DNA of 64,000 bases from positions 8,727,964 through 8,791,963 of the forward strand of contig CM026431.1 of the NCBI GenBank assembly GCA_014871385.1, written 5' to 3'. A model generated the notes under the pieces. It did no database searches, had not been told where the DNA came from, and worked only from the letters and a program-made list of their open reading frames with translations. Origin of the DNA: Ceratodon purpureus (lineage: Eukaryota; Streptophyta; Bryopsida; Pseudoditrichales; Ditrichaceae). A program made the translations under genes and the position numbers. Of the stretch, positions 22,295 to 57,673 are shown piece by piece (the stretch's first letter is position 1; every line of letters starts with the position of its first letter).

Positions 22295-22547
22295 GACATC
22301 TAATAACAAGTATATGTTTGCCTTAATAAAGGGTACATGTCAGGGGATACAAATATATATTGCAGTTCTTCAAGATAGAATGTATTGAAATAGAGTGCAA
22401 TCAATGCGAACGACAAAGCCTTTAATATAATGAAAAAGTCAATACAGCTTCTGAATAGCTGACTTAGTACATGGTATATTACTAAAATCATTCACTACGT
22501 GACAAATGGCCATTGTGGAAACGGCAGTTCTAAAGTAGGAGGGCTAC

Positions 22548-26225: not shown

Positions 26226-26862
26226 ATTCGCAGGCAACTCAGAGATACTACAGGAAGAAGGGAGAAGAGGGAGTTTACTAGCGAAGCAGTATCGTGAGAG
26301 CAAAGTGAGAGGAATGATGCATCGCTGTTGATCTTTTTATTCAAGGTGGAATGTCCATGTCAACAGTTGGGGATTGATTCTGTCTGTTACGTAACGAATG
26401 TATGATTAAAGAGAGACGGCGCTAACTAATTACAGTGCCACTTTATGCAGGTCTAAGTATATGAGGTAAGGTTTATTTAACTCTACTTTAAGATTTGAAT
26501 CGTGGAGCCGATTCTATTTGTCATGAAGTATTATAAGAAAAGAATGAGCCGTCAATTCAAAACTACATTTAAATCAATGAATATAAAAAAGAGCATGATT
26601 GAAGTGCTTGATTCAGATCCTTCAATTTATAGTGCACTTAGATATATTCCTTAAAATCAGAGGTTGATATTTTAAACCTAGCTTCAATTATAGAATTGTT
26701 TATATTACTCTTAATTTAAAGTGGACAGACAATGTGTCAGTGGTTGAGATTGTATATGAACTTAGGGTTCTAGGAAAATAGTTGTAGGTGAGAGGTATTT
26801 AAGCTAGCAGGAAGTTCTCATGAAAGTCTTTTTGTGAGAGAGTCCTTCCTTTGGTTAGACAC
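26226..26862. promoter_or_regulatory. Divergent intergenic region of MULE-1
   Basis: This AT-rich spacer separates the leftward transposase gene from the rightward cargo gene, so promoters for both must lie here. A TATA-like TATTTAAG is at 26,796-26,803, about 60 bp before the rightward start codon. The spacer differs greatly from the MULE-2 one, unlike the adjoining transposase. Confidence 0.5.
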
Positions 26863-29520: not shown

Positions 29521-29659
29521 TTCTTGGTGCTATAGATGAAATTTGAGATGTTTTTTTTTACTCTTTCATTTATGAGAAAATCTTTATGTGATTGGTAAAT
29601 TCCATTTCTCAGTATCTACATTGTTGTGTTTGATTGTTCATTTCCATTGCTTACGGCAG

Positions 29660-33657: not shown

Positions 33658-33789
33658 GTTTGAAGGAGGCTTCGGTCTTTCATTGTTTTCATTGGATTTG
33701 ATTTGATTTAATTGGAGTTCATTGCGTAATCCTTCGTCTACTCTACTACCCTGAATCTATACTTGTTACGATTCTCATTTCCAAATCGT

Positions 33790-34900: not shown

Positions 34901-35169
34901 CAAACCTTGCCTCCTTTATGTTCTGTGAAATTTGTTACTTTCCTTTTGCATTTACATAAACCTATGAAAGAATTAATTGTTTGATCTAGAACTTAACGCC
35001 TGATCATTATATCTTGCCTAAATCCATGAGAAATCTAACAAAATATATGCATGACGTCATCATGACATCAGCCCTAATTTGTATCTTAGAGAACAAACGT
35101 AATAAATTCTTACCAGAGATAATCCTAATTTCCACGGTAATATACTCTTTTCCTAAAAAAAGTGTCAAA

Positions 35170-35311
35170 ATCAAGCCTTAATTTAGTAATTTTCCACGGT
35201 TATAGGGTCTACTTTGCTTTTGAAAATTTTCCTAATTGTCAATTCTGTGCTCTCCATTCTGTGCTCTCCGCTCTCCGCTCTACGCTCTCCGCTCACATAC
35301 GAACTTTCCCC
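35170..35311. repeat. MULE-1 right terminal inverted repeat
   Basis: Complementary to the left end. It contains an array of CTCTCCGCT words and ends GTATGTGAGC (complement) ...AACTTTCCCC at 35,311, followed by the ATTAACATCA target duplicate. The inner shared block GGTTATAGGGTC is at about 35,199. Confidence 0.8.
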
Positions 35312-35371
35312 ATTAACATCACTAAACCCAGGAACTCAAATTGCTAACCTCTGTTTGCCTTGCGTGCAGCC

Positions 35372-38300
35372 ATGGTATCCCCCAATCGGAGACGCAAATG
35401 GAGATCAACTGCGGAAATTATTCATCGCCATGAACTTCAGTTTGCTGCAACTAGGGATGTCCCAATAACGAGATGGTCATGCCCGTGCACATACTGTCAT
35501 GGAGGCCGACGTTTGCCTGTGCGTGCTATAACACGGCATCTCACCTCTTATGGCCGCGACCAATTTCTGAACCACTCCATGATTGGCGGGGATCCTCCAG
35601 GGGGGTACCCAGAGCGTGGGGCTTGGTACTACAGCGACGAGGAATGGACAGAGGACAATGTCTACAGCAATGAGGAAGAGTTTCAGCAGATTCCACCGAA
35701 AGACCCAGATTGTGAACCACATGGCCTCCACGATGTACAGCAACAGTTTGAGGACGCCATTAGAACCGCTGAAGAGTTAGAAGAGCTGACACGGGACTCT
35801 GAGAACATGGAGAGAGACGATGAACATCCCGCAGATTTACCTGACCCCACATTTGAGGCTTTGGAATTATTGTCTGCACAGGCCTCACACCCACTTTATC
35901 CAGGTAGTTCTGTGAGCTTGATTTCAGCAGTGGTCGTTTTGATGACATTGTGCACCACGCATGGAGTGAGTTTGAAACTGAGCTGCTTCACTATCTGACA
36001 GTGGAGCTGCTTCCAGAAGATAATGTGTTGCCTGCAAACCATTACCAAGCGAAGAGGATGCTGCAGGCACTTGGACTCGCATACAATGTAATACATGCCT
36101 GTCCGTCAGGATGTGTCTTATTTCGAGGAGAACACAGCGATCTGGAATCGTGTCCCAGTTGCGGAAAAGGAAGATACAGAGAAGGTACAAAGACAGCTCC
36201 GATGAAGGTTATAAGACACTTTCCCCTCATTCCGAGGTTTAGGCGCATGTTTGGATCTCCCGCAATTGCAAAGCTCCTGAAATGGCATTCAGAGCGTGGG
36301 GTGACCACGAACAGCGATGGTGAGATTGTAATGGAGACCGTAGTTGACAGCCCCGCTTGGAAACACGTTGGAGTCATAGATCCCACATTTCAAGCGGAAA
36401 ACCGGAACGTACGCATGGCACTGTCACTTGATGGAGTGAACCCTTTCTCGGTTCGAAGTACCTCACATTCAACGTGGCCTGTTCTCTTGGTTATTTACAA
36501 CCTGCCACCGTGGTTGGTGACAAAACGGTTTTTCATCATGATGAGCATTTTAATATCCGGCAAGGAGTCTCCAACAGACAAGAATTTAGATATCTTCATT
36601 GCTCCTCTAGTGGAAGAATTACAGCAGCTATGGGAGGGAGTAGAAGCGATAGACGCTTCAGCTGAAGACGTGCAAAGAAGATTCACTCTTCGGGGTATAC
36701 TTTTATGGACTATTTCAGATTATCCTGCTTATGGTTTGATTTCTGGACAGCAAACTAAAGGATACAAAGCTTGCACCGTATGCGGCCCAGACACTGTTTC
36801 TAGAAGCGCTAGAGGCCCCAAAGGTGAGAAGATAGTGTACGTAGGTGCACGCCAGCGCCTTCCAGAGGACCATGCTTTTCGTGAAGACCTGCGGTTCAAT
36901 GGGCTTCAAGAAAAGGAGGTTTCCAATTCGAGAATGTCTGGCGAAGATGTTTTACAGTTTGCAGTAGAAAGGGAGTCATACCTTGCCTCGGGAGGAAGGG
37001 CAGAGGGTCCAGAGGACCCTGTGAGGACGCACGGGGTGAAAAGGCTTTCAATACTCTTTACTCTCCTGTATTGGAAGGTGAGTGCTCTGAGTTGCTCTGT
37101 TTCATGTCTTGCTCGTCTTTCTTTGTCACTAGGCATCCCAGTAAACATGGGAGATACACCATAAAACAAGTGAAAACAGTCATTCACGTCTATAAGAAAC
37201 GCGCTTGTCTAGAAATGCGTTGACGTCAAATTGTGTTATTCAACGTCCCAATAAACATGACCGACTGACTGCTGAAAGCTTTTCCTCGCTTTAGATCGCT
37301 ACGGTTGTTTTCCAACTCGGATACATACAAATTATTTACAGCCCCATGAACATATTCAATGTGATGCAGGACTTGCTCATACGACACACACTGGACGTCA
37401 TGCACTGCGAGAAAAACCTATGTGAAAACATAGTCAAGACCTTGTTTGGAGAGACGGATTTTCCACGAGGACGGCAGGACTACAAAGACATGGGAGTCAG
37501 GCCTGACCTATGGCTGAGACGAACACACGGTACAGACGGGCAACTCTTCATGCCGCATGCGCCCTACGTACTCTCTCCCCAAGCGAAGGCAGACATGCTT
37601 GCTGTGATAGCATCAACAAGGGTGCCCACAAATTTTTCTTCCGCAATTCATAAACGAGTTTCTGACGGGAGACTCAGGCTTCTGAAATCCCATGACTTTC
37701 ACATCCTCATGCAACACGTAATTTAAGTTCACGTTAACTTGTACCAACTTTGCGTTCAGAACTGTTTAATGTGGCAATGCTACCTCACGATGTGGATATT
37801 TCTTTTCGTCAGAATATTCATTTCAATGATCCAAAATATCTACGTTAAAGGAAACTGTTAAAACTCGCGTTAAAACACGTCCTTTTTGACGCAGCTCTGA
37901 TGTGGTGCGCGTATAATTTAACATGATGGCAATATGAGCTCAATCTTTATTTCTGGAAAATAATCCTTTACATCATGTCAATTTTCAGATACTACCCAAT
38001 TCACTACGGAATGTTGAAATGAACGCAGCCGTTCGGCTGTGTATTATGAGGGTCAGCAGAGTATTCCGACGCCTGTGCAGTGGCTCAGTGGATATGTCTA
38101 AAGAAAAAGAGTACACTGAAGACGCAAATGAGACGCTTTGCATGGTTGAGCGAGAGTTTCCTCTAGGATCCATGGTCATCATGACGCACCTATTTGTGCA
38201 CCTCATGGAGGAGCTCTTTATATGCGGCCCAGTTCACACCCGCTGGATGTATCCAATGGAGCGATACATGAAGACCCTTAAGGATTATGTGCATTTGAAG

Positions 38301-39747
38301 CAAAATCCAGAAGGTAGCATGGCAGAGGCGTATTATATGGAAGAAACCCTCGGATTTTGTTCAGAGTATATGGAACGCTACGGGGCTACATCTCGAAGAG
38401 TCTGGGATGCAAACGAAGAGCAGTCAATGTATGATGAGATGGTAGAGGGCAAGGGAATAAGACGCCCTATGTCTCGGACTCTCCGTGACTGGATTCACAA
38501 CTTTGTGATCAGAAATGCTGGCACACTTCAGTACTACAGAAGGTACAATCATATATACTCCACGATAATAGCATTTCCGGAATCTTACTTACAGTTTAAC
38601 ATGTCTGAACGTGGATTAACTTGCCTGAACGTGATTTAACGTGCCTAAAACGTGGGTTAACATGTATGCAACGTTTTTAGTAACGTGTACATTCAGGGCA
38701 ACGTTACAGTCCTTGTCTTTGGTGACTACTATGTCAGTCTTGAAACAAGAAAATGCGTTAAAATGTCCCGTTAAACTACGTCATTTTCCCCAATGCTTTC
38801 CTATAGTGAATTGCACGGACCATGGTCAGTCCTTTTCATGTTTGCACGCACTACTAATGCATTTTGCACACCGCAGGGTGTATGAAGCAGAGCAGAATTC
38901 TAGGAGCACAGAACGCCGCTTGAGAAATTGCGCAAGACGTGGACGAAGAAGACGGAATTCCTCAGACATTCCTTCACAGTTGAGGCCTTTGGCCCCATTT
39001 CCGGATTGGTTGAAACAAACCGTTGAAGCCGATCGGAGAACACGCTCTCGGACCATCGATCAAACCACTTATGATCTGTTGAGACCCCCCTCGCTGATTG
39101 CAACTGCTTATCGATCAATGAAGGCTTACGGCATGCACCTCCGCTGTCGCTCAGTTGAAGCTTCCAGGACTTCTATGGACAGTGGAGTACATGCAATATT
39201 CACCGACGATGCAGGAGAAGAGACGGAGGAGTATGTAGGTTGGGTTGAAGAAATACTGGAATTAGAGTATAGGAGCACGTGTCTCGTTGTTCTTCTCTGT
39301 TCCTGGGTGAAAGGAAAAATGGGAGGCGCTTCACCAACAATGAAGCGGGATCAACATGGATTTCTGTCCATGAATTTTTCGGCAAACTGCCTTCTTCCTT
39401 TGGGTCCCCACTCTTTCGCGTTCCCCATTCACACACATCAAGTGTTTTTTATGGCGGACCAGGGGCCATGGAAAGTGGTGTGCAAGGCAAATGTTCGAGG
39501 CAGCCGCAGAGGTCGTGCCTTTGCTGCAGAATACAACGATGCAGAGGCACAATTACCCGACTCAAATTCACCACATGCCAATAACACAGAGCTGTGCACA
39601 GGACAGCCTTCACATTCAGACGTCTCAGCTTACGGGTCCTTTGTAGAAGAGCAGGAAGGCGAGCCAGTGGCAGGGGAGGGAAGTGATGAGGATGACGACC
39701 GGATCATGGGTGATTCATCTGATAGTGAGTTTACATCAGAGGATTAG
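35372..39747 (+). pseudogene. TNP2-like CACTA transposase with DUF4218 and DUF4216 regions
   Basis: An acceptor (GTGCAG) lies just before the ATG at 35,372. The N-terminal domain reads WRSTAEIIHRHELQFAATRD and SCPCTYCHGG. PLYPGSSVSLISAVVVLMTL is followed at about 35,966-35,973 by an apparent 1-base frameshift into EFETELLHYLTVELLPEDN. The core has IHACPSGCVLFRGEHSDLESCPSC. The next exon (about 37,342-37,717) has LDVMHCEKNLCENIVKTL. Exon 37,989-38,542 is DUF4218-like (FPLGSMVIMTHLFVHLMEEL, GPVHTRWMYPMERYMKTLK). The last exon, 38,877-39,747, has a DUF4216-like WVEEILELEY and ends in an acidic tail. The phase at the 37,077/37,342 junction also does not fit as I read it. TNP2 proteins cut and join CACTA ends. 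This copy looks inactive, and MULE-1 lies 60 bp upstream. Confidence 0.85.
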
Positions 39748-42158: not shown

Positions 42159-42946
42159 ATGGCGCACGTGCAGTGTAGAGTCCTTAGTCCTAGTACTCCG
42201 GTGAGGGAATCGGAGATGGAAGAGCTGATCGTCGACCTCACCCGGATGAGGTGCGAGGGGTTGTTATCACGGCCGTGGTTACTGAAAAGTGAGGTGATGG
42301 TGAGGGAGGTCCTGGAAGGACCGGACAATAGGTGGGATAATACGATCCGAGGCAAGCCCACGCTGTGGAATGCGGAACAGTAGGCGGCAGCTTACGATTT
42401 CGAGCAGACCGGGCTCCTTTGGGCGACCCGGACGGATAGATACGTGCAGGATAAGTTTCACGGAAAGATCCATAGGAATAATGGATACGAGATAGACGCC
42501 TGCAAGGATAGGAGGCAGAGGCAGGTCTTAGCCTTCCTCGTTCCGATCCTGTATTCGCTGAAACCGGAACAGGTCACCATTACGGTCGGGAACACCATCC
42601 TCGGAGCGTACTCAGGAGAACGTCCGGTAAATTGGGCCGCACTCATGGCGGAAGTTGTGCAGAAGATGGTGCCGGGGATCGGAAAGAAGCCGACCCCGAT
42701 CTCCCCTTTCCTCTTCCACATTTACAAGGCGTATGAGTTGCTGAGCGATAAGGAGGAAGAGACTTATACGGCGGCGAAGAACTTCCTCAAATTTTCGGAG
42801 ATTCCGCCCGGAATGGAAGCCGATCCGCGGGGCGAAACCTCGGATACAGCATCCACGGAACAGGAGGACGATACAAAGGAGGTTCCGAACCCCGGCACTA
42901 CTAGGGCTCAGTCCAGGTCACGATCGGAGCGTGCTGCGTCACAGCA
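42159..42946 (+). pseudogene. 5' part of a transposon-like coding sequence interrupted by MULE-2
   Basis: From the ATG at 42,159 the frame runs to the MULE-2 insertion site, with one stop, TAG at 42,381-42,383 (codon 75). Recognisable features are an alpha-helical region (RQRQVLAFLVPILYSLKPEQ, NWAALMAEVVQKMVPG, FLFHIYKAYELLSDKEEE) and an acidic-polar tail (ASTEQEDDTKE). It resembles structural (gag-like) proteins of plant repeats, but I do not know the family. The frame continues exactly at 56,245 if MULE-2 and one target duplicate are ignored. Total length would be 739 codons including the terminator. Codon use is CGG/GGA-rich and unlike the MULE genes. Confidence 0.6.
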
Positions 42947-43170
42947 GAGGGAAGCTTGTACGTGAGCGGAGAGCGCAGAGCGGAGAGCGGTGAGCGCAGA
43001 TTTGGAGAGCGGAGAGCACAGAATGGGAGACAGAACCTTAAAATAGCACTTTTTTTACTAAAAATAAATTATAAAATTAGAAGATCCGAATATTCTTAGT
43101 ATATTTTTGGGAAGTTACTAATTTTAGTAATTTAATTGACCCTATAACCGTGGACTAATTACAGTATTTT
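42947..43170. repeat. MULE-2 left terminal inverted repeat
   Basis: Nearly identical to the MULE-1 left end, with the same GCGGAGAGC-type short repeats (42,965-43,020) and the GACCCTATAACCGTGGA block at about 43,139. Confidence 0.8.
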
Positions 43171-43930
43171 CATTGAATTTGTAGTTCATATTCTCCTTTC
43201 TTGGTGATTAATTTTTTAACGTGCACCAATTACTATGCTCCAGCTCCTTCTAACTAGTTCAGGCATACAGTAATTCCCCTTATCTCCTTAAATTTATATG
43301 CAAATTACTACTTAAAATGTTTTGGTATTGAACCTGTGAACAGGGATCAAGTAACATTTAATTTCATAACATTTTCTTAACATTGCTAGAATTCATCCAC
43401 TATAGTCTACATGCCTTTCTCCTTTTTTTTTTTTTTTTTTTAAATTTTTTTGAAATTTGTTTTGTATTTTTTATAAAATTTTCTTTATTCTATCTATCTT
43501 GTTAGAGGGGTCAAAAGCCTCCTTGCATTTGATTCTCTCCTTCATTTTATTTTCACAATCATTTTATTTTCACATTCAATTTGTTGATCTCCTTCATATT
43601 ATTTTCAACCTTCATTTTAAATATTGCTATTTTTTTCTTTAATCTTTTTAATTTCAATTTATATAAATGTTTTTTTTTTTTAATTTTTTTTTTTTTTTTT
43701 TTCATTCTTTAATTTTTAAAGAAAAAATTAAATGCTAAATGACCTCTGCTAAACCTTCATCTTTTTCCATTCGGTTTAGGAGGATGACAACTTTTAAATG
43801 AATGAATAGCCGATTTTCAAGGGCGCCAAGCATCTTCTTCAGGGATATTTAAGATAAGAGTAGGGAATGTCTCTGCCTCTTTTGTATTGGTGTTATGTGA
43901 AGCTCTTTTCCGTAGTGCGGGACAGCACCT

Positions 43931-44383
43931 ATGGAAGACGTCAGAGATATTGTTGTTTCACTCGCTGACGATGTTTGTCCATTTCAACCATATGTTGAGG
44001 TGGAGGACGAAGAAGAGGTGATGGCCAACAGCCAAGGGCGTCCGTCGACATCGGATGTTGCGGTACAACCGGATGTAAGAGCTGACCCTCCACGTTCAGA
44101 AAATTCGGATGAAATCATAGTGCTAGAGAAGGACGCAGATGTGCCTTTGCAACCACATGCATACTCGAAGGTTGGAAAGATCCGAAGGGGAACCTATTCC
44201 AAGGAATCAGTTAATCGGAGGCGGGGAGGTGGGCCATTGCTGAAACGATCATACCAAGGACATTTGCCAAGTGTGGGAACGAAAGTGAATGCGAATGTAG
44301 TTTCTCCTGTAATACAGTCAGCGGCTGGCAGTCCTGCTGATAGTGTAGTGGGCAACCCTAAACGTGTTAGGTTCGAAGATTAG
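43931..44383 (+). CDS. Conserved MULE-borne 150-aa protein (MULE-2 copy)
   Basis: Same length, start and end (NPKRVRFED) as the MULE-1 ORF at 21,842-22,294. I count roughly twenty substitutions by eye, concentrated in the disordered middle. The acidic block, the RRRGGGPLLKRSYQGHLP block and the KRVRF tail are kept, which argues for selection on the protein. Confidence 0.7.
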   Translation: MEDVRDIVVSLADDVCPFQPYVEVEDEEEVMANSQGRPSTSDVAVQPDVRADPPRSENSDEIIVLEKDADVPLQPHAYSKVGKIRRGTYSKESVNRRRGGGPLLKRSYQGHLPSVGTKVNANVVSPVIQSAAGSPADSVVGNPKRVRFED

Positions 44384-44637
44384 GACATCTAATAACAAGT
44401 ATATGTTTGCCTTAATAAAGGGTACATGTCAGGGGATACGAGGTATATAGTGCACTTCTTCAAGATACAATGTATTGAAATAGAATGCAATCAATGTGAA
44501 CGCCAAAGCCTTTAATATAATGAAAAAGTCAATACAGCTTCTCAATAGCTGACTTAGTATATGGTATATTACTAAAATCATTCACTACGTGACAAATGGC
44601 CATTGTGGAAATGGAAGTTCTAAAGTAGGAGGGCTAC

Positions 44638-47600
44638 CTACTTCTTCGCCAAGGGGTGACGCAAGATTCCACCCTCTAAAAGTAGCTTGACCTCGTTGAA
44701 GCTGAAGGTAGGCGCATGGATGAAAAGCTCCGCTTCGGGATCACGGTTGCAGACCTTCAAGAGTATGTAGTATAGGTGCTTACAATACGTGAACTGAGTC
44801 TTCCCACGGAACGTAGTCATTGTCTTCTTGAATGCTGGGCAAGTGCAACCAGGGTAAGAACTGATGGTAATCTGGTAACGTGTGATGGTGGAGCGACGCC
44901 CGAATCCAGCCCAATGATGCAACCGTGGCCCGGCTCAGGTATCATGGTGACGGAACGGAGGCGCGCTTTGAGAGACTCGGAGGAGCCCATGGATAGTCGC
45001 TGCGCCGGATTGGGACGAGTGGCAGTGCGCTTCACCATCTTGCCGTCTCTCTTGCCTGGGTAGCGGTCAGCGTCTGCAGGGACTGGCACCGAGTTGAGAT
45101 TTGCAGGGGGCGGGGCACAGGAGAAGAGGCGTCTTGGGGAGACCGGCTTCTTCGGCGGAAGTTGAAAGCCTGCTGCTTCGAGGGCAAGAATCTCAGTCAG
45201 TTTTAGGTTAGTACCTAGTTTCACTGGCCAGACCTCAGGAATGGAGGGGAATTCCTGGTCCTTTGAGTAGTGCGCTACCCACTTGCGCTTAGAGCCTTTC
45301 ACGCAGCGCTCAATATCGTCGGAGCAGAAGAAGAACTCTGTCTTCTCGACTGTGTTCCTGCGATAGTTAGTCCACAGCCCAGTGTAGGTCGGTGCAGCTG
45401 TGCAAAGGGGCCCCCTGACGATTCTCTCAGTGCACTTCTTCTTCGTTTCAGCTCTTTGGGCCCAGCAGCACTTCGCAGAAAGTTTGTGAAGTCTCGAAAT
45501 GTGCCATTCCTTCACGTCGACCTTGGTTTCTTCAACCGCGTTGACATGGCGAATGCCGCCCTTGTTCACAGGTGAAGGTAAAGGGGAATCAACTTCCTGG
45601 GCAGGAGGTTGGGTACATTGTACCTCGGTGTCGTGTTCGGAGTCGTCTTCCACAATGACGGGCATCTGCATAGGGCGAGCCCTGACGGCACGTCTTGGGC
45701 CTCTTGGGCGTGAGAAGTTTGTCTTGTCCGGGCGATGAGACTCCTCGTCAGCTCCGATGGGGACGTCGGCTTTTCGCTTCTGTGAACCGAAGACTTCCGC
45801 TCCAGGCATGATAGGCTGACGGGTGCAGAACTCATCCGCGCCTGGCATATCGAGCATGGGCTTATCAAGCAGTGTAGGATTTCCCCATTTCATCGCGTTG
45901 CGTTCAGCCATCCGGAGCCTGAGTTCCTTCTTGGACGGTCCTGTTCCGCCGACGTCACCTTTGAGGAACTGATAGTAGTTAACAACCTGAAGAAAAGCCC
46001 GAACGAAATCGTCCACGGTAGCAACGTAGAGGTCGTTCCCGTTGTTTCCAGAAGCTTGAAGCCACTTGTTGTGAACTGTTTCGGCGAGGTTACAGGTGGG
46101 CATCTCTGTGAGTTCTTCTTTCGTGAATTTCTGCAGGTTTGACAGTAGGTGCCGTTAGATTCACGGATTAGACTTTTGTAGGTTAGGGCTAGGAAACCAG
46201 TATCAAAAACATCAAAACAGAGTGCAGAGATCGTACCTCGGTCATGAATCCCCCCCACTGGCGGAAGCGGTGGTGCCAGAATGACAGCCACTGATCGAGT
46301 TTGATGAGCCCGCTCTCGCCAACGACCCCGGTGGATGCCCACCATGCTCGCAACGCGTGGTACAGAGTTTCCGCCTCTGCCATGCTGGTCGCATTCTTGT
46401 ACTGAGTGCACATCTTCTTGTGCTGTTCCCAGAGTTCTTCGGGAAAGTGCTTCTGCGTATACGCCACCATGTTCTCAGTCCAGTGGAACAAGCACGACCT
46501 CTCCCGGTCCTCCATTGGGTCCTCTTTGTTGCCATTGCCGTAAAGGATTCGCACTGCATTCCAATTCGCCTGTGCGTTATCCGCCATGAACCCCTTGAAG
46601 TTCGGCGCTGCAACGCCATTGATCTCCATGACCAGGTTCAGGTTTTTCCAGAAGACGAGCTGGGCGTCCGTGTCCTCGGACTGCATGTCGCAAGTGGCGA
46701 TTGTCATCACGCGGCAGTAGGTGGCGTCGTACACATGGCACGCCATCGTCGACCAATTTTTGACGCGTTTGACATGGTCGAACATGATCCATGCGTTCTC
46801 CAAATCGCCACCAGCTTGCATACGGCTGACCAAGTCGACACCACTTCCCGGCCCGACCTCCGACATCTTGAAGACAAAGACTTTGTCACGCATCGATCCC
46901 TGACCAGGAAACCTATTCTCCTGGACATACGCCCAGAGACTGTTACCACGGAGCTTGGTGATACCGTCCATGATTCCGTACCTTACGAATTTTTTGAAGG
47001 TGGCAACTTTGTTGCGGATGTTGGGCGACGCCATGTCTTTGCATCGATCCAGAACAGGAACCAGCTCCTCCATCGTCAGTTTCCTCGGTGGTGCATCCTC
47101 GGGCTGTAGAAGGTAGCTCCCGATGAGGAGTTTGCTCGCCTCCAGGACAACGGCGCTCTTCGTTGCTTTGTTGTTCATCTCTACCTGCTCTTCTATTAAG
47201 CTACTAATCTCTACTTTAGAGTCTCTGTAGTCTCCAACTTTCACTGGATGATCATGTGTTCCTATGTGAATACACGCTCTAGTCTGATTCGGTTTGCCCA
47301 CAACGTAATAAATCTTAGCCTCGCATGTAGCTACACATGATGGAGGTTCTTTACATACCTTGCACACTAGCGTGGAGTCAGATGGAGGAGGCTGGTCCAT
47401 GACAAAAGCTTGCAGGGTACAGCCTTCGAACTCAGTCTCGTTGACCTCGAAGATCTTGGGAACACGCTTGAGAAAGTCACACTCCTGGTTGCTGCACCGG
47501 AGCCATCCGACGCAGGTGGAACTTCGAAAAGAGAGTCCGAAGTCGTTTTTGATGTTTGTTGTGATGGTCTAGGTCCACAAGTGTCCGTCGTATCGTTTGT

Positions 47601-48315
47601 CCATTCCCTGCATAGACTTGGCGGCGAGCTTAGAGGAACCTGCAGCAGCTGGGGGCAACTCAAAAAGAACCGGACCATCAAACTTCGCAGGCAAGTACTC
47701 TACTCTCTCGTGTCTAATAGTGGAATAGTCTATCTTCTTCAAAATGTTTTTGGACCCACGCGTCTTAGCAATCTCTTTAAGGAGCGGAACAATGCTAACT
47801 GTGACCTGGGACAATGGAGGAGACACATTGGAAGGAGGAGCATCTGCGTGGACCTTAGGCACCAACTTGACGGGACTGACTTCGTCATCAGAAGAGAGAG
47901 ATATGACGGTCGGAGGAGGTTTCTCTACATCTGAAGTCTCGGTACCAGGCTCGACTTTGACTTTGACATCACGAGGTAAGGGAGTCTGAATTGTGCAAGT
48001 AGAAGAGCGACGGGGGGTGAGGATCTCAGTGGATGCAGCCATAAGAGAATCAGTAAGACCGTAGACTCTATAGGATCCAGGGAGGAGTCTCCACTGCAAC
48101 ATGTTGTTCTCATCTCTCACTGAAGGTTGCCCGAGGGTGTGGGTAACCTCGGCAGTAACGTCATCAAAGATCTCCTCCTCTATACTGATGGAATCCTCAC
48201 GGAAATGGAATCTGAGACTCAGGCGAAGAGAGGACACCGTAGCTAGACCATCGTCATCTACGCGAAACCTAAGAGGGATGCCCATGCCTTGGGCGTACAG
48301 ACAGACCATCCCCAT
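44638..48315 (-). pseudogene. MULE transposase with SWIM zinc finger (MULE-2 copy)
   Basis: Collinear with the MULE-1 gene at a constant offset of 2,090 bp. Start ATG at 48,315, intron 46,131-46,236, SWIM finger CTCPAF...YCKHLYYILLKV close to the C-terminus at 44,638. It shares the in-frame TAG (47,569-47,571) and the frame change near 44,890-44,905. From 44,822 to 47,955 I see no base difference from MULE-1, in coding or intron sequence. Outside that window substitutions appear at once (for example in the first 140 residues and in the last 60). Transposase function is expected to be cut-and-paste of elements with these terminal repeats. Confidence 0.8.
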
Positions 48316-49112
48316 ATTCGCAGGCAACTCAGAGATACTAGAGGAAGAACGGAGAAGAGTGAGTGTACTAGCCAAGCTGTATCGCGAGAGCAAAGTGAGA
48401 GGAATGATGCATCGCTGTTGATCATTTTATTCAAATTGGAATGTCCATGTGGACGACTAGGTAATGATTCATTCAGCTACGTAACGAATGTATGATTAAA
48501 GAGAGACGGCGCTAACTAATTATGATGTTGCTTTTTGCAGGCCCATAAATATGTAGGAAGATTTTTAGAATATTGCTTCGCGTATTTGAATGGTGGAGCA
48601 GATTCTATATTTTATGGGGTGTGATTGGATTAAAAAGAGCCGTCTACTCTTTCTGCATTTAAAACAATAAATATATAGAATTTGAATTAATCAAATTCAT
48701 GCATTAGTTATATATTTATAGGACTAATGCAAGCATATGATTTATTCAAATTCTATATTTTATTCAGTGTTAGAGTTCCTCAATATTCATAATAAATTGC
48801 TGGACAGACAGACTGTGAGTGAGATTAGAGTGAGCCGTCACTTGCATCCATATTTAATACAAGTATTCCTGTGCTTAATTCAAATCTTTTAATATTATGT
48901 GGGCTTGGTTTATTCTCTTCAAATATAGATTGATCTCATCAGCTTTAATTCAAGTTGCAATTTATTTATAGTTTTCATTAATTCAAGTAGGTTTAGAATA
49001 TGGGAAGTATTTAGGGCTGAGTCAGGGGGGTTGCAGGTTTGGGATACATAAGTTAGAGGAAAGTTAGGAGGAGAGCTATATTGTGAGGAGAGTTCTCTCG
49101 TTAGTTAGACAT
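48316..49112. promoter_or_regulatory. Divergent intergenic region of MULE-2
   Basis: An AT-rich spacer between the leftward transposase and the rightward cargo gene. After the first 150 bp it shares little with MULE-1. It contains repeated ATTCAA/TTCATAT words, including a near-palindromic ATTTGAATTAATCAAATTCAT at about 48,677. TATTTAGG at about 49,008 is the nearest TATA-like word to the start codon. Confidence 0.45.
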
Positions 49113-51526
49113 ATGAAGGAGAGTGGAGGGTCAGCTCCCTCCACTTATGTCACTCCTAGGCGTAGAAGAAAACCAGGTGGTACAGATTTTACTAACAGGA
49201 GATCGAGGAAGAGGAGAGAATTACGTAGGAAGTCAAAGTCGAAAGGCAACCTCTTGAGTGCACCTCTGAAGGTTCGAGGAGCTGGGCTCCCTGTGGCAAT
49301 TAAATTTTGTAGCATCCGTAAACTCATTCTAGAGTCCATAGTAGAGGCGGAAGATGAGGTTTTAGAGGATACCGCAGTTGAGCATGAGGAGCATGAAGTA
49401 ATAAGTAGCGGAGAGAAACATCTGGAGATGACGGAAGAGCTAGGGTTGAATTGTAGTCCGACTTTGGAGACACCGCAACCTTCTTTCGGATTCAAGGAGT
49501 GTTCGACAAGAGGGACGGATTCTCAGTCGGGCGACCATGGTAATATAGATGTGGTAAGTTTCAGAATCCATCAATTAAAAGATATTAAATGTAAATTATA
49601 GTTGGTTTGAAGTAATGTCTTTGCTGCGGGTTCGTTGTTTTACTGTTTAGAATAGTGAAGCTGCATGAATCTGAACGGTTGTTCAAAATAAAAGTGGAGT
49701 AGTAAATTTCGTCTTAGTCCTAAACATTTGCGCAGATTGGCGACTCGTTTAGGATTGAGCAAGACGTTGAAGAGGAGAAGACGCCAGAAGTGGGTACGGG
49801 CGAGGAGTCAGATCATGAGACGTTGAGAAAAGTCGCTAGGAGAGCGAGACGCCAAATTATGGAGGCGGGCGAAGGTGGGGAACTACTTGCTGCTACACGA
49901 GCGGGGCGAGGGCACCCGGGAAGTCCTACTGAAACTAATGGGGAAGATAGTGATTCGCTCGACATTGCGGTAGGCCCAGGAGAAGCGGTCATTGATGAGG
50001 GGTCGGCCCGAGGGAGAGGTCGAAGGGGTGAGGTGAGGGGTCCTGGGAGGGGTAAGGGTCGAGGTGGGAGGGGGAAAGGCCCTTCGCAAGCCCCATTGCT
50101 TCACACACCCGCGGCCAGAGAGAAGATCGAGAAGGAGATGGAGGGGCGAGGAGAGGAGCGTGAAGAGCAAGAGATGGCGAGTGAGGGAGGTGGCACGGAC
50201 CGCGGCCCTGCTACTGATCAGGTGAGCATACTTCAAGTGTAATTGGGGTTGTTTGGAACTTGGGTAGATAGATGTGTTGGAATTGTGGGTGTCGATGCAC
50301 TTGGAGAGAGGAGTGAATTCTTGAGAGAACAGGTCGCGGGGGGGATTGTGAGGGAGGAGGGGGAGAATGTGGGGGGGGATTTATTTGGTGGGGAGCTGCT
50401 CGAGCCTGCAGCCATGGCCGCGGCCCTCGCAGCCCATGTTGGAGCAGTGGAGGCTGGAGCTGTGGAAGGAGCCCCGGGGGAGGAGCCCCTCGCATGGGCG
50501 CATTCGGATCCGAAACCCCCCCACGAGGAGGGGGAGAATGTGGGGGGGGATTTATTTGGTGGGGAGCTGCTCGAGCCTGCAGCCATGGCCGCGGCCCTCG
50601 CTGCCCATGTTGGAGCAGTGGAGGCTGGAGCTGTGGAAGGAGCCCCGGGGGAGGAGCCCCTCGCATGGGCGCATTCGGATCCGAAACCCCCCCACGAGGA
50701 GGGGGAGAATGTGGGGGGGGATTTATTTGGTGGGGAGCTGCTCGAGCCTGCAGCCATGGCCGCGGCCCTCGCAGCCCATGTTGGAGCAGTGGAGGCTCCA
50801 GCTGTGGATGCCGCCCCGGGGGAAAATGATTGGGAAAATGATTTGTGTAATCTGCAACTCCTTGTTTTATTCTATTTCTTTTATGCTTTGTATATAAATC
50901 TCATAAAATGCATACCGTTTGTGTTGTAGGAGCTCACTGAGCAATTCACCGCAAGTGACTTTGATGGCCCAACTCCAGCAGAAACTGAGGTAATCTGTTT
51001 TCATTTGTTTTCGGATTTGAACATAGCCTGATTTATTGAACTTCCATAGTCATTTCTAATTTTCTGCTGAATGCTTAGTTGAGAATATGACAATGTTTTT
51101 GTTCTTTTTCTCTAGGTATTCTCAGATGCACCCTTGTCCATCAGTTCGCCGATCTCAGTGATCAATGTCTCCGACCTCTCGGATTCATTTGATCAGCCCC
51201 ATTTATGTAGGTGTGATCTGGGCAACCCTGTAGGTTTAGGTAGTGGACCTCTCGAGGTCCACTCTCCTCAGTACATGCCTACGTCTCCTGTCTATGAGCC
51301 TACATCCCCGGGGTACATGCCTACCTCTCCAAGACTTGGGACCCCGCCTATGTCTCCACCTTCTCCATCCTCGCCTATTAGAGTGAGGAGGCCAGCTCAT
51401 GTTGTCTTCGCCCTCCCAGCGATATTGCCATGCCCTGTCCAGCAAACCAGGCGATTTTGGAAGAGGCGCCGTCACTGGAACTGTAGACAGGCTAGGGAGT
51501 ATTATAGTCGTGCACGACGCACATAG
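49113..51526 (+). CDS. MULE-2 cargo gene 5' exons plus CTD-heptad terminal exon (gene A)
   Basis: Four exons, all phase 0: 49,113-49,553; 49,736-50,221; 50,930-50,989; 51,116-51,526. They give 465 residues. Exon 1 is basic (RKSKSKG) with an acidic second half. Exon 2 has VARRARRQIMEAGEGGEL and an RG-rich stretch (GRGRRGEVRGPGRGKGRGG) that could bind nucleic acid. Exon 4 has SPISVINVSDLSD, a SUMO-interaction-like core, then heptads YMPTSPV-YEPTSPG-YMPTSP and a basic tail (RRFWKRRRHWN) ending at TAG. The heptads match the RNA polymerase II CTD pattern except position 2. The copy is free of stops. Exon 3 ends in phase 0, so it can splice either to this terminal exon or to the ParB exon at 51,682. 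Confidence 0.65.
50353..50815 (+). repeat. 171-bp in-frame repeat, about 2.7 copies
   Basis: The landmark AGAATGTGGGGGGGG recurs at 50,364, 50,535 and 50,706. Units are nearly identical and 57 codons long, so all frames stay open through the array. The plus-strand frame 50,243-50,929 encodes repeats starting EEGENVGGDLFGGELLEPAA followed by an Ala-rich helix. It lies between exons 2 and 3 of the MULE-2 cargo gene and is either intron or an optional repeat exon. MULE-1 lacks it. Confidence 0.85.
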
Positions 51527-51681
51527 CGGCCTAAGCTCTACTTATTTCTGCTGCAGCTGATTGTGTTCTCAAAAGAGATGTACCAGTCTGAGAAGTAATT
51601 CTTTTATTCTACTTTATTGTTTTTGATTTGCTTAAGTTCATTGACTTCGAATCAACTCTATGTACGTATGACCTTTGACAG

Positions 51682-54600
51682 GTAACTCAAACAGAGGATC
51701 AGTTGCCAGCGCCATCTTGTCCAACTGATTTGACAAATGCAGTGGACAGTGAATTGGAACACAGGAAACATTTCAAATTGGACTCTACAACCGTCATCAA
51801 CGATCTCCGAATACTCCCAAAGACGAAGTCCCGTATGCTTGTACCCCTCTGCAGGATGCAGTCAATGGCAAGAGTGCGACCGGTAGGCGAAATGGGAGTT
51901 CAACATTTGGAGCGCGAGTTTGTCAATGGATATAGAGATGGGGACCGGGTCATGTACATTTCCATGTACAACCACGAAGAGAAGACAGCCGAAGTCACTG
52001 TGGAGATCAAGGCTGACTGGAGCCCTTGTTGGCAAAAAGTCAATGATGCTTTCGAAGATGAGCTCTTGGCCGACCCGGACTGGAAGGAGTTCTCTGGGAA
52101 GATGTTCTATGTCTGGGAAGGAAACCATCGCCTTGCCGCATGGTACAGACATATCAACAACCATCACTATGATGATCCAGCTTGGCACATCTCCGTGCAT
52201 TGCATTGTTCTTGACCCCCGCGGTCATGTGGGAAACCTTCTTCATGTCATGCACGACATCAACTGGTAAGAATTTTTTCCCTACTCTTTGTCCCCACTTC
52301 TTGAAAGCTGGTTGTACTTCAGGGCTTTAACTAACTACCATATCTTCGAGCAGGTCTACAGAAAATGATCATGTGAAGAGTAATCTTCCTGCAAAACTCT
52401 TTCGTATTCGCTCTTTTGGTGTGATGAAATTGGAGGAATTCAAGGATCTGCTCTCACCAGCAGAGTATCAATTATGTTTGAATCACAAACCATCGATTCC
52501 AGGATGGTTTACTTTGCCAACCAAAATCTTCATCGCATTTCTTTATCGTGTAAGCACTACTTCCCCACCCCCCCTTACGATTCTAAATGTCATCAATTTC
52601 CGTGCTCTGTACACTCAGAAGTTGATAATGTTTATTTTCCAGAGAGAAATCGTGGCTGCTTCAGACGAAGCAGCCAGGACCTACAAGGAGAAGACACCCA
52701 TTACAGAGCAAACTGCCGCAGGGGTTTGGGATGCTATGTCTGCTGCTTCGTCCGACATGATCAACTACATTAAGAAGAAGGACTTCACCAAGTACCTGAC
52801 CATTGCCAATCCCAAAAACGGTGATGACTTCCTTGCGGAGGTGAGTTTCGACCCTTGACATTTCTACTTTACTTTCCTATAACTATTTTCAAATCTAATC
52901 TTCCCTATCATGTATTGTTCTCTTCCCAGATCAATCGGCATTACAGTGATTTTTCCAAGCCCGAGATGACAGTGGATAAGCTTCAGAGGATTGTTCCCGC
53001 AAATGTTGATGCCAGATTTAAAGCCCGTTGGCTGAAGTGGTGGAACTCTTCACCAAGTGCACGACAATCTTACAGATTTCTGCCCCAAGACTTTAAGGAG
53101 ACCGAGTTGGAGCCCTGGTTGAACAAGGCCACATTCTGGGCTGCGGTAGAACTCTTCAAACTTCTTAACAATCACTAAAACCTCTTCTTTTTTGTTTAAT
53201 GTCCATGTTTACCTCAACGACATTACCTTTCTGTGGCAGTTGGAGGATGCTGTTACTCGGGAGTTTGATGACATCTGTAAGACCGAGAACCTTGTCATCA
53301 AGTGGAAGTCCTTCCCGGGACTGTTGCGGCCAGACGCATATGTGGAGAGCTGGCGTATTCTCCTTTGGGAAAAGGCCTTCCCCGCATTTATTAGTACCCG
53401 CGCAGAAAAGCCTTTTGATAAGAAGTCAGACTTTTCCACTTTTCCGGGAGCAACAGATGTTGTCAAGCGTGTGACATACCGGTAGGACATTTATGAACTT
53501 CGACTTTGTATTGTTTTACCTTTTCGCATTTCTTTATTGTCAATAATATGTTTCTGATACATGGCAGTTGAATTTTATTAGGTACTTCAAGAGAGAGCTG
53601 GTTCCAAAAGGTGCAATTGACCCTGAGAAGTTCCCTTCATACTTCGCGTCCTGGATTCAGAGAGGCTCTGATCAGTGTATTTATACTCCTCTGCAGCTGA
53701 AGAGGTACAGCTCGTCCCACCTAGCCGCTGGGTGTTGGTACCTCGATTGCATTCGAGGATTCGTTATTGAGTCTGAAGCGGAGCTCAAAGCTGAGCTTGA
53801 CGCGGGATCAATAGCCATCGACGATTCTGGAGACGGTTCTGATGAGGCCGAAGGCCTCCAGGATCAATCATCTGCACCTCCACGGAAGAAAGGGCGGGGG
53901 CGGCGACTGCGAAAGCTGGGTGCTACGTCCCAGGGCTCTCAGGAGACTGGTGCAGAGTCCTCGGCCCCGGAGAAGGGCGCTGCCGTTCCATCTCCTGTGA
54001 TTGTCGTTCCAAATCCGTCCCCTACTCCTGCGCCTTCATCGGTCAGTGCATCCGCTATCACCAGAGGTCTTCTGGAGCAAAGGAAGGCCAGACTTCTCCC
54101 GGCAAGCACCTCCTCCGCAGGAACTCCCCATTCCACTGGTGTTTCTATCATCAACTCATCCGTGACCCCGTTACTGGTTCGTAACATGGAGCTCAAAGAC
54201 AAGGGTGGCCATCCGGATTGGGTGAAAACTCTAGAGTTCGTGCGCAAGGTATGATTCTCTTCTTCAATAATTAATATTACGTACACTTCAATTAATTTCA
54301 TATAGTCTAACCCTATAGCGTTGTTTCTCCAGTTTGGACGTGGGCGGCATAACCAAGTTCCTGAGCGGTGCGAGGTTGAGAATCATCTTGGAGTGGACTT
54401 GATCATTGTAGACATCCCTGAGAATCTTCCTGTCCCTCTCATTTCCGATCCCCCTACAGTGATTCCTCCTTGGAACTCCCGTGAAAAGGATTATGTGTAC
54501 GACATTTTCTATTTCGCAAGTCTTTACTTGCAAAATGATGGCGCTCTGTGCATCATCTACAACAATGATCAAGCGTTGGCAACGGAGATTCTTGAAGAAG

Positions 54601-55691
54601 CTAGCGCCACTAAGTTCGTCCTTTACAAAGACTGGCGGGGCTTCAATGAGCTCGGCCTCACTTCTCCTACGAACCCCGGAAACCTGGTAATTTCATCCTT
54701 TCCTTTCCTTCAGTTTACTTAGTACTATCCCTTCCGTTTATTCATTCTGACATAATTTGGTTGATTGCAGACTAATCGGTTCTGGATCCGTGTCTTCGTT
54801 CGTGGTGGCGAGCCGCCATCTAAGTTCTCCTTTCAAACGAAGAAATCCCATGTCATACATGGCGACCTCAACATTACCAAGAGTGATGCGATTTTCAACT
54901 TTATCGACGTTGATTCTCAGCAAATGAATGGGGATGTTCCATGGAGAGGGCCAAGGGAAAAATCCCCTGGGATGATGCAGAGCATAATTGGAGAGCTCTC
55001 GAAGCCCGGCGACATAGTCCTGGACTGGAAGGCAGGAACAGGTAACCGTTCTTACATGTCTCTACAGAATTATTTCTCTGATTCCTTTCTCAGTTTCTCA
55101 CGTCTTCACCTTGCTTTGAGTTGCAGGGGCCTCTGTCAAGGCTTGCCAGGCTATTGGTCGTCATATTATAGCTTTTGAGGATGACGAAGCCATATTCAAC
55201 GCCCTTCTCAAACCGTATATGGCAGCAAAATCTCCCATGGGCCCCCCTAAGCATCCTAGACCGGCAGCAGCAGAGGAAGCACCAGCAAAGAAACAAAGAC
55301 CCACTAAGTATTGTAAGTCTTACTCTAGAATTTGTAGGTTTCGTGCAATGCATCTAGTATTATTTCTGTACGCAAATTTCCCTATTCGATCTAACCACTT
55401 CTGGCTTTCTATTGCAGAGTAGTTGTGACAACACCGCCAAGTGGGCATAGAGCCGTGTTCACTCCATCGTGGCGTCTTAATTCCAGCCCGGTTCAGCCTT
55501 TTAATCTTCCGGACTATGCAGAGGGCTTAGCACAAGCGCTTCAATGTGGTGCACTTAGATATGTTCCAAGTCGGCCCACTAATTTTGATCCCAGGGCCCT
55601 TCTATTTGTCGATGAAGAGGCTGTAGAAGGAGAGTCTGAGTCATCGGGCTCTGAGAGTGGAAGTAGCGACTGTAGCATCTTCGAAGTTTGA
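51682..55691 (+). CDS. ParB-like domain fused to DNA N6/N4-methyltransferase-like domain (MULE-2)
   Basis: Ten exons: 51,682-52,265; 52,354-52,549; 52,643-52,840; 52,930-53,145; 53,240-53,481; 53,582-54,248; 54,333-54,686; 54,771-55,041; 55,127-55,312; 55,420-55,691. They join without a stop into 1,062 codons including the terminator. Phases match MULE-1 at every junction. Five of ten exon lengths are identical (196, 198, 216, 242, 354) and the others differ by multiples of three. It contains VWEGNHRLAAW (ParB-like), an alpha-helical middle, a Ser/Pro linker, DLIIVDIPEN at the motif IV position, IPPWNSREKDY, and KPGDIVLDWKAGTG with GRHIIAFEDD (motifs I and II). Most changes from MULE-1 are conservative, so the protein has been under selection. 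Together with exons 1-3 of gene A it would be about 1,390 residues. Confidence 0.75.
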
Positions 55692-56089
55692 AAGAGGCCT
55701 CGCTCTATCATTGTTTCCATTTAATTTGATTTGATTTCAGTGGAGTTGATTACATACTGCATCGTCTACTCTATTGCAAAGCACTAAAATATTCATGATT
55801 CTCATTTCCAGTTTATACTCGTGTATACCTTGCCTCCTTTATGTTCTGTGAAAGTTGTTTCTTTCCTTGTGCATTTACATAATCCTATGAAAGAATTATT
55901 TGTTTGATCTAAAACTCAACGCCTGATCATTGTATCTTGCCCAAACCCATGATAAATCTAAAGGAATGTATGCATGACGTCATCATGACATCAGCCCTAA
56001 TTTGTATCTTTGAGAACAAACGTAATAAATTCTTACCAGAGATAACCCTAAATTCCACGGTAATATACTCTTTTTCTAAAAAAAGTGTC

Positions 56090-56234
56090 AAAATTAAGCC
56101 TTAATTTAGTAATTTTCCACGGTTATAGGGTCTACTTTGCTTTTGAAAATTTTCCTAATTGTCAATTCTGTGCTCTCTTTTCTGCGCTCACCGCTCTCCG
56201 CTCTACGCTCTCCGCTCACGTACGAACTTTCCCC
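56090..56234. repeat. MULE-2 right terminal inverted repeat
   Basis: Complement of the left end, with CTCTCCGCT-type repeats (56,172-56,220) and the terminal TACGAACTTTCCCC at 56,221-56,234, followed by the CGTCACAGCA duplicate. Confidence 0.85.
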
Positions 56235-56244
56235 CGTCACAGCA

Positions 56245-57673
56245 CGCGGAGCCTTCTACGGTTCGGGGAGATACGGAACGGAGGGAGGTCAGTTCCGAGC
56301 GGGGGTTTCCGGTGGAGCTATTCCGGGGGATTCGGGTGGAGACTCACCGGGCGCAGGCTTCTTACGATCGGATCGAGACACTGTTCCGGAGAGTCTGCAC
56401 ATCTCTGGGAGGTTGCTTACCGGAGGAGGTGATCCGAGAGGTGGAATTGTTGAAGGACGCCCCGAAACTTCGAAGTGAGAAGAAGCAGCTGGAGCTTCAG
56501 TTGCAGGAGCTGACGAAGGAACGGGCGGCGAAGAGTGAGGAGATCCGGAAGTTCCATGCCGAGCAGGAGGAGACCTTGGGGGAGCTTCGGACGTTGGTAG
56601 GGAGTTCGGGTGCGGTAATCAACAAGGCCCGGCTGTTTGATGAGAACGTATTGCAGCCGGCCGATTTTGAGAACAAGCAGAGGATCATCCTGATCCTTTC
56701 CAAATGCGAGCACTCGATGAACCAGATCCTGAAGAAGGTTCGGCAGCTGCTCAATCCGAGTACCGGAAGTCCTAGTCTCGGAGTCGCTGGTCGGAGCCTT
56801 CCGCTCCCCGGATCTCCCTCTCGGGCCGTTGTAGGAGAATCTCGAGGAGTAGGGTTCCGAACTCCAATAGAGCGTAACCTCCAGCTCGAGGAGCGGATGG
56901 CAGCCGATGCGGACATCTTCATGACGAACCGGACGATTGCGGAGGTGATCCGGGAGCACCAAGCACAGGTGGCGTCACCCGGAACCAGTACGGTCCAGCA
57001 GAGCTGCGCGATCCCCACCGGTCAGGCGGAAGTTACCGGAACTACAGTCACCGAGAGGCGGATCGAGGAGAGGACGGTTACGGAGCAGGTGACCCGATCC
57101 GTGCCGCCGGATGTTCTCCCACGACTCGGGGAGGAGGTGATCATTGCGAATTACCGAGGGGAGATAGCGGGAACGGAATGGGGACGAGCCATTTCACCAC
57201 CCGGACGGACCCGGGTAACTCAGGAGGGGGGACTTACCCCTTCACCCACAACCAAGACCGGAACGGTGACGCCTACCCCCACCGGAACGCCAGCAGCGGA
57301 TTCCCCTTCTGACAGTGTCGGTGCTCGGAGAACTTTGAGGAAGAGGAAGGAGCCGGCAGAGAAGGCCACCATTACAATTTCGGAGTCCGACTCGGAGACT
57401 TATGCGAGCTCTCCGGTTGGGACAGCCGGAACTGGGACTCGGACCCCTACGACCGGAACTCCTCCCGCACATATGTTCCCGAAGTCTCCCAAGTCTCCCA
57501 AGAACCGGATCGTTACCCGGTTGTCCTTGGAGGCTCAGGCGAAGGAGTCAAAGGCGGAACGGAGTGCTAGGCGTAAGGCGGAGCGAACAGCAGGGGTAGG
57601 CGGATCCGAGCCGCGGGTGACCAGGTCGAAGGATCGCGAGCAGGAGAGCCACAAGAAGACAAAGAAGGGGTAG
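56245..57673 (+). pseudogene. 3' part of the transposon-like coding sequence interrupted by MULE-2
   Basis: The frame continues directly from 42,946. A long coiled coil (SEKKQLELQLQELTKERAAK and onwards) is followed by Pro/Thr/Ser-rich linkers with TPTGTP-like repeats and a basic Lys/Arg tail ending TKKG at the TAG (57,671-57,673). There is no protease, reverse transcriptase, integrase or zinc knuckle in this stretch. Coiled coil plus basic tail fits a nucleic-acid-packaging or structural protein. The sequence is rich in CCGGA words, giving a base composition distinct from all neighbours. Confidence 0.55.

Follow-up and report, generated by a model that had tools for sequence, protein, structure and literature searches.

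Two moss transposons with Mutator-like ends carry a selected ten-exon gene encoding a methyltransferase-like domain

Two elements at one locus

The window analyzed here is a stretch of 64,000 nucleotides from the moss Ceratodon purpureus (assembly GCA_014871385.1, contig CM026431.1, positions 8,727,964 to 8,791,963 of the forward strand). It holds two large transposons, Element 1 (E1) and Element 2 (E2), and in both of them a ten-exon cargo gene is encoded on the strand opposite the presumed transposase. We establish here the cargo gene, the selection acting on it, the family of its C-terminal domain and the boundaries of the two elements. The principal features are as follows, with positions counted from the first letter of the window.

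20,876-35,311, no strand: E1, 14,436 bp, with terminal inverted repeats (inverted-repeat search and flanking duplication)
42,947-56,234, no strand: E2, 13,288 bp, with terminal inverted repeats (inverted-repeat search and flanking duplication)
51,682-55,691, plus strand: cargo gene of E2, ten exons (splice model, translation, purifying selection)
51682-52265, 52354-52549, 52643-52840, 52930-53145, 53240-53481, plus strand: exons 1-5 of the E2 cargo gene
53582-54248, 54333-54686, 54771-55041, 55127-55312, 55420-55691, plus strand: exons 6-10 of the E2 cargo gene
29,660-33,657, plus strand: cargo gene of E1, ten exons at positions matching E2 (splice model)
42,964-43,015, plus strand: terminal array of overlapping GAGCG(G/C)AGA units at the left end of E2, candidate recognition sites (occurrence count)
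20,893-20,944, 35,265-35,294 and 56,181-56,217: counterparts of this array (occurrence count)

A repeat search located the inverted ends, and flanking target duplications of 10 bp set the exact limits of the elements, ATTAACATCA at 20,866-20,875 and 35,312-35,321 for E1 and CGTCACAGCA at 42,937-42,946 and 56,235-56,244 for E2. Inner portions of the ends pair likewise, CCACGGTTATAGGGTC with its complement. All 16 occurrences of GAGCG(G/C)AGA in the window sit at the four ends of E1 and E2, while AGCGGAGAG has 12 copies within the two elements and none elsewhere in the window.

Long terminal inverted repeats with a target duplication of about 9-11 bp are a feature of the Mutator-like element (MULE) family. 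Both elements have long inverted ends and a duplication within this range, and they fit DNA transposons with MULE-like ends. The superfamily label is drawn from the ends alone because the presumed transposase has no Pfam transposase match and its middle piece no PDB match; of the Mutator assignment made in the initial annotation, the ends and the duplication agree, whereas Pfam transposase models were unmatched.

Open frames are found at both edges of E2 (42,384-42,965 and 56,159-57,673, plus strand), from which we judge that its insertion may have interrupted a coding region.

The cargo gene is maintained by selection

Our exon model reproduces the coordinates of the ten-exon gene proposed in the initial annotation, which had also placed the same gene, with the same exon phases, in the element that it called MULE-1 (29,660-33,657, here the E1 copy). 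Both copies have nine introns, all GT-AG and 83-113 nt long, at like positions and in like phases, so that an intron-bearing gene does lie inside two transposons bounded by inverted ends and 10-bp duplications. The coding sequences are open to the stop through 1,056 codons in E1 and 1,061 in E2. A chance joining of open reading frames (ORFs) was rejected, as none of 2,000 base-shuffles of either coding sequence was free of stops and the other two frames are full of them (30 and 50 in copy 1, 33 and 67 in copy 2).

The two proteins are identical at 739 of 1,051 aligned residues (70%). Across the whole gene, nonsynonymous divergence (Ka) is 0.198 and synonymous divergence (Ks) 1.21, giving a Ka/Ks of 0.16 (bootstrap 0.13-0.20); the cargo protein has therefore been kept by selection, in both elements and over a long divergence. 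The ratio is 0.10 in exon 1 (Ks 2.06), 0.05 in exons 2-5 (Ks 4.04, saturated), 0.19 in exon 6 (Ks 1.53), 0.28 in methyltransferase exons 7-9 (Ks 0.61) and 0.20 in exon 10 (Ks 0.42). Judged by these values, the 3' end of the gene is less diverged, and apparently younger, than its 5' part. Conservation also extends over the 58 codons that precede the conserved CRM residues, at 60% identity with saturated synonymous sites; the real 5' end of the cargo gene therefore sits farther upstream.

A permuted methyltransferase-like domain

The C-terminal part of the E2 product contains two motifs expected of amino-methyltransferases.

54,411-54,425, plus strand: motif IV, DIPEN, residues 728-732 (alignment with 15 phage enzymes and CcrM 6pbd)
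54,951-55,203, plus strand: PF01555-matching stretch, residues 880-935, with motif I DWKAGTG and GRHIIAFEDD (Pfam); interrupted by intron 8 (55,042-55,126)

PF01555 (N6_N4_Mtase) scores 31.3 bits in E2 and 36.7 bits in E1 against a curated cut-off of 26.7, in a match confined to the motif I end of the profile (positions 155-218 of 221). DWKAGTG occupies residues 904-910 in E2, its last codon split by intron 8. Motif IV is thus N-terminal to motif I, which is the permuted order of the beta class, and CcrM aligns across both. With a profile of the two copies, the PDB yielded DpnA-type chains (5hfj) at E 1.3e-4 over the motif I half and CcrM (6pbd) at E 8e-4; the CcrM alignment runs colinearly through motifs IV and I, with its DPPYNL facing DIPENL. 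PHROG methyltransferase families match the cargo protein with E down to 6.5e-11, and hhalign against nine phage methyltransferases aligned 71 columns around motif I (Prob 96, E 1.5e-9). By tblastn, the E2 domain matched 424 phage records at E up to 1 and the E1 domain 212 at E up to 0.1, with 2,462 plasmid records also found at E up to 0.1; most among the matches listed cover the motif I half.

Taken from these alignments, a permuted beta-class N6/N4 methyltransferase-like identity is supported for the C-terminal domain. The initial annotation is borne out here in its domain call, in the order of motifs IV and I and in the presence of each motif that it named, including VWEGNHRLAA (52,111-52,140). 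The domain family makes its proposal of a bacterial or phage origin plausible, but pattern scans found no close relative among the viral, bacterial and archaeal sequences covered. Scans of IMG/VR viral contigs matched 41, 31, 33 and 26 stretches and a scan of GTDB bacterial and archaeal genomes matched 39, none of which encoded a cargo relative; such scans need short conserved peptides, and distant relatives could escape them.

The N-terminal region

52,111-52,140, plus strand: ParB-like motif VWEGNHRLAA, residues 144-153 of the E2 product (seen in translation; profile support marginal)

VWEGNHR is present in both copies, and the pattern, defined post hoc, occurs in 7 and 10 of 20,000 shuffles. 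We built a hidden Markov model (HMM) from 25 actinophage-type ParB regions (24 of 37 loci, 13 near-duplicates having been dropped, plus the Evaa record). It gives the two copies 2.5 and 4.1 bits, scores reached by 12 and 3 of 1,000 shuffles, and its best alignment, shown for copy 1, lands on GNHRL. Ten other phage ParB regions score between 1.6 and 53.5 bits with this model; the lowest belongs to phage Jeremy, a genuine ParB, and low scores are therefore compatible with ParB. Algal proteins of this kind have been called ParB-like in print, in the sections of PMC12477816 available to us.

These observations argue against the alternative that the N-terminus is not ParB-like, that prokaryotic character is limited to the methyltransferase half and that WEGNHR is a coincidence, which we hold to be somewhat unlikely. 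Library and PDB searches, all negative for ParB, speak for it. So does a model of 11 phage ParB regions, which scored copy 1 at -3.0 bits (reached by 666 of 2,000 shuffles) and gave copy 2 no score. Removing an insert brought no gain, as 49 and 21 of 1,000 shuffles then attained the scores of the 25-region model. A pooled model was weaker, its scores being reached by 75 and 52 of 1,000 shuffles, or by 56 and 17 with the insert removed. The best hhalign result for ParB was Prob 18 and E 0.0013 in a single comparison, and with the full cargo protein against eight phage ParB-region proteins hhalign picked up the motif I part at Prob 26 but no ParB match. An AlphaFold2 model of exon 1, made from two sequences, had a mean predicted local distance difference test score of 36.7, too low for a fold search.

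Several other matches were discarded. Two came from searches with exon 1 and were put down to chance: an RNA polymerase of one phage, present in two records, at E 9 (phage tblastn) and a ribosomal protein at E 0.33 (PDB). DUF6037 (Pfam, E 0.11), PHROG 3222 (E 0.25) and DUF6301 (E 0.071) were below significance and set aside. A ParB identity, carried by one motif, is thus no more than suggestive. The initial annotation had called the motif ParB-type and the gene ParB-like, and what stands of that call is the motif with its marginal 25-region score, whereas the libraries offered no credible match.

Other coding parts of the cargo module

Further conserved coding sequences lie upstream of the ten exons.

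51,116-51,526, plus strand: upstream coding exon or ORF of E2, with heptads YMPTSPV, YEPTSPG and YMPTSPR resembling the C-terminal domain (CTD) repeat of RNA polymerase II (PF05001, Ka/Ks)
29,083-29,520, plus strand: upstream CTD-like exon of E1, four heptads (Ka/Ks comparison)
49,068-49,601 (E2) and 26,824-27,234 (E1), plus strand: conserved, basic-rich ORF opening the 5' side of the cargo module (Ka 0.21, Ks 0.99, 128 codons)

The heptads follow the form Y(M/E)PTSP(V/G/R), with four in E1 and three in E2, and PF05001 scores the E2 exon at 20.0 bits, slightly below its cut-off of 20.3. Over 132 codons the CTD-like exon has Ka 0.20 and Ks 1.26 in its own frame, compared with Ka 0.40 and Ks 0.37, and Ka 0.36 and Ks 0.26, in the other two; its open frame terminates at its own stop in both copies. 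The frame of the basic-rich ORF stops earlier in E1 than in E2. Each module also has tandem repeats of its own in its 5' part: in E2, three 171-bp units (50,354-50,866, plus strand) of 57 codons each, open in frame, and in E1, a pair of 232-bp copies at a spacing of 245 bp (28,337-28,813).

Presumed transposase and mosaic structure

44,820-48,426, minus strand: presumed transposase gene of E2, in open pieces 47,572-48,426, 46,192-47,568 and 44,820-46,154
22,730-26,336, minus strand: presumed transposase gene of E1, laid out as in E2 in three open pieces

With hits allowed up to E 10, no Pfam transposase model matched any of the three pieces, and a PDB search with the middle piece matched no chain. 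Both copies contain an in-frame TAG on the minus strand (25,479-25,481 in E1, 47,569-47,571 in E2), which in E2 separates the first two pieces. In contrast to this frame, the cargo gene stays open in both copies.

The shared TAG falls inside a stretch in which E1 and E2 are identical. In 300-column windows of gap-free columns, identity between 22.9 and 25.9 kb is 100% to two digits, and no mismatch occurs across 22,732-25,865, some 3.1 kb of the transposase region on the minus strand with its E2 counterpart at about 44,822-47,955. Elsewhere, identity is 79-97% in the remaining left part and 88-96% at the right end, whereas the cargo modules are mostly 73-84% identical in windows and about 70% by blastn. 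By this measure the divergence of the cargo modules is far older than that of the shared flanks, a pattern that a recent swap of flanks between the elements, by gene conversion or recombination, would produce; the identical 3.1-kb stretch could possibly be an assembly artefact.

Two smaller features of the elements were also seen. About 1.1 kb of E1 (33,784-34,903) has no E2 counterpart by blastn and includes a 199-aa open frame on the minus strand (34,170-34,769). Near the left ends, at 21,842-22,294 and 43,931-44,383 on the plus strand, is a small conserved ORF of about 150 aa, 87% identical between the copies with a Ka/Ks of 0.42.

Beyond the elements, the interval between E1 and E2 encodes CACTA/EnSpm-type proteins (35,908-39,744, plus strand), with matches to Transposase_21 (E 1.2e-67) and DUF4218 (E 2.4e-29) and a weak match to DUF4216, below its cut-off. 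A RING-H2 protein is also encoded nearby; together with the CACTA-type element and the intron-bearing genes, it suggests a plant source, in keeping with the moss. Direct repeat arrays lie outside the elements at 17,131-17,983 and 18,125-18,999, in a region of strong AT skew.

Possible roles of the cargo protein

We give an even chance to a model in which transposons with MULE-like ends carry a long-maintained accessory gene whose product acts on its own element. The product would consist of a possibly ParB-like N-terminus, a large middle region and the C-terminal permuted beta-class amino-methyltransferase domain. It may recognize repeated sites near the ends of its own element, for which the terminal GAGCG(G/C)AGA arrays are candidates. 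The methyltransferase-like domain would then write a mark foreign to the host, N6-methyladenine (6mA) or N4-methylcytosine (4mC), or else read or cover the DNA at the ends. As a result, host silencing might fail to shut the element down, or the ends might be marked for the transposase. DNA binding, catalysis, the mark and the effect on silencing are what we infer in this model.

We favor this model because an intact ten-exon gene with a Ka/Ks of 0.16 is present in both elements; because its product has PF01555 above cut-off, the CcrM alignment and the match to the phage methyltransferase profile; because 10-bp duplications delimit the elements and the terminal repeat units are, within the window, confined to their ends; and because a protein of about 1,100 aa on the opposite strand is reported in Ectocarpus and an anti-silencing precedent in VANDALs, each as far as the portions of the sources seen go. 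Should the protein place 6mA or 4mC on the element that encodes it, or block 5-methylcytosine (5mC) deposited there by the host, a transposon would be supplying its own enzyme for marking or reading DNA in a genome where transposons are silenced through DNA methylation. An accessory class described briefly from algae in the sources covered would extend to MULE-like elements in a plant genome, and would do so under measurable selection.

Several points weigh against this model. The strongest methyltransferase matches are limited to the motif I half; for motif IV and its surroundings, the case is carried by the CcrM alignment and weak phage tblastn matches (best full-length E 0.04). Searches of Pfam, PHROGs, NCBIfam (E2 only) and the PDB, and phage tblastn, gave no credible ParB match. 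With Glu in motif IV of both copies, the domain may be one without methylation activity. The terminal arrays may equally be transposase sites. Finally, because the in-frame TAG is common to both copies, neither may now make a full-length transposase, and the elements may not be autonomous.

The motif IV change bears on a second explanation, in which the protein is a pseudo-enzyme: a methyltransferase fold, perhaps binding S-adenosylmethionine, that transfers no methyl group and serves as a scaffold reading DNA or its methylation. Degenerate methyltransferase partners that act as scaffolds are familiar from the METTL14 type. Motif IV reads D-(P/L)-P-(Y/F) in all 15 phage enzymes aligned, a tally that leaves out the phage proteins Blf4 and Evaa2, which have no methyltransferase motifs by eye. 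Both cargo copies have D-I-P-E, outside the catalytic (D/N/S)(P/L)P(Y/F/W) pattern, and methyltransferase activity is uncertain because the aromatic residue is replaced. As the Glu is common to copies whose methyltransferase exons differ by a Ks of 0.61 (1.21 for the whole gene), fresh decay does not account for it. On the other hand, the motif IV Ile resembles the Leu found second in 4 of the 15 phage enzymes. Motif I of the copies, DW(K/N)AGTG, departs from the usual Phe kept by 11 of the 15, but the four enzymes that lack it (DN(T/C)xGSG) are the same four that have the motif IV Leu, and DW(K/N)AGTG alone is no sign of loss. The AGTG and the GRHI(I/L)AFE strand that follows are well preserved. 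Replacement of the motif IV aromatic by Glu is, in this alignment, the sole change unmatched among the 15 phage enzymes, and we regard a pseudo-enzyme as rather unlikely.

A role like that of VANC proteins strikes us as likewise improbable on balance. Here the protein would bind short repeated motifs of the element and remove or block host 5mC, with no need for methyl transfer of its own. The niche is the same, an accessory gene of a MULE-like element, and the tandem repeats in the 5' part of each cargo module recall those of VANC21 introns and VANC targets, in the portions of PMC5735166 seen. Such a role, however, does not require the methyltransferase domain that selection has conserved, and the likeness to VANC is one of description only. 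It is more speculative still, and distinctly unlikely in our estimate, that a catalytically altered amino-methyltransferase, the ParB-like region and the CTD-like heptad protein, encoded next to the cargo gene or as part of it, together occupy or read the ends of the element and recruit transcription machinery against silencing, instead of forming a plain methylase. Passive carriage of a captured host gene in the manner of a Pack-MULE, which MULE-like ends around a multi-intron gene might suggest, is very improbable and was rejected, given a Ka/Ks of 0.16 over 1,051 codons, ten exons intact in two diverged copies and a presumed transposase in the same element. Pack-MULEs hold pieces of host genes under relaxed selection and lack a transposase.

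Comparison with known systems

The closest parallel to an element carrying a gene of this kind comes from the alga Ectocarpus. The initial annotation knew of no ParB/methylase cargo in plant MULEs, and as a claim of no precedent this fails: the available sections of Dinatale et al. 2025 (PMC12477816) describe a gene of the transposon Sola1-1_Ec32 that encodes a 1,104-aa protein with ParB-like and methyltransferase domains on the strand opposite the transposase, the methyltransferase being predicted to make 4mC or 6mA. The same sections mention green and red algal cases, citing Iyer, Abhiman and Aravind 2011 and Petroll et al. 2025, and the idea that such elements mark themselves is already in print there. 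Like Sola1-1_Ec32, each moss element is a large DNA transposon encoding, opposite its presumed transposase, one long protein (1,061 aa in E2) with an N6A/N4C methyltransferase domain and a ParB-like call. Unlike it, the moss elements have MULE-like ends and a 10-bp target duplication and lie in a plant genome, the algal proteins being compared here by description only.

At the level of the protein, the C-terminal domain resembles CcrM and other beta-class PF01555 enzymes in its permuted order from motif IV to motif I, its colinear alignment and its score above cut-off. It differs from CcrM-type enzymes in having DIPE for DPPY or DLPY and in sitting within a 1,061-aa eukaryotic transposon protein. 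The proposed pair of domains, and their order, are like those of phage ParB-methyltransferase fusions such as those of Verrucomicrobia phage P8625 and Streptococcus phage Javan108. The eight phage proteins are, however, only 384-511 aa long, with methyltransferase motifs in six of them, and their ParB parts have no profile link to the cargo.

VANDALs are MULEs. In Arabidopsis, their VANC proteins bind short repeated motifs and cause loss of DNA methylation, and tandem repeats are present in VANC21 introns and VANC targets (PMC5735166, portions available). Like the cargo, VANC is a transposon-encoded accessory protein with tandem repeats in its gene, and it acts on its own element, as the cargo may, a likeness drawn by description (PMC5735166); unlike the cargo, no methyltransferase domain is mentioned for VANC in those portions. 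For an anti-silencing role, VANC would be the best functional analogue in plants.

A permuted bacterial-type N6_N4 methyltransferase linked to transposons in a eukaryote has a further parallel in bdelloid rotifers, where N4CMT acts at transposons (PMC8885841, which in the sections available also mentions a 4mC enzyme in Marchantia). There, the enzyme is a host protein with a chromodomain that aids transposon silencing (PMC8885841, same sections), whereas in the moss the transposon itself carries the gene.

Among the literature matches listed, in a scope that took in little of the subscription literature, no title or abstract opening mentions a plant MULE with a ParB/methyltransferase gene. The cargo looks like the same general kind as the algal ParB-like/methyltransferase transposon genes, of which it is an apparent new relative. 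What the moss elements appear to add to these known systems is MULE-like ends in a plant genome, measured selection, an altered motif IV and a CTD-like exon, together with 3.1 kb of identical transposase sequence next to a cargo of old divergence.

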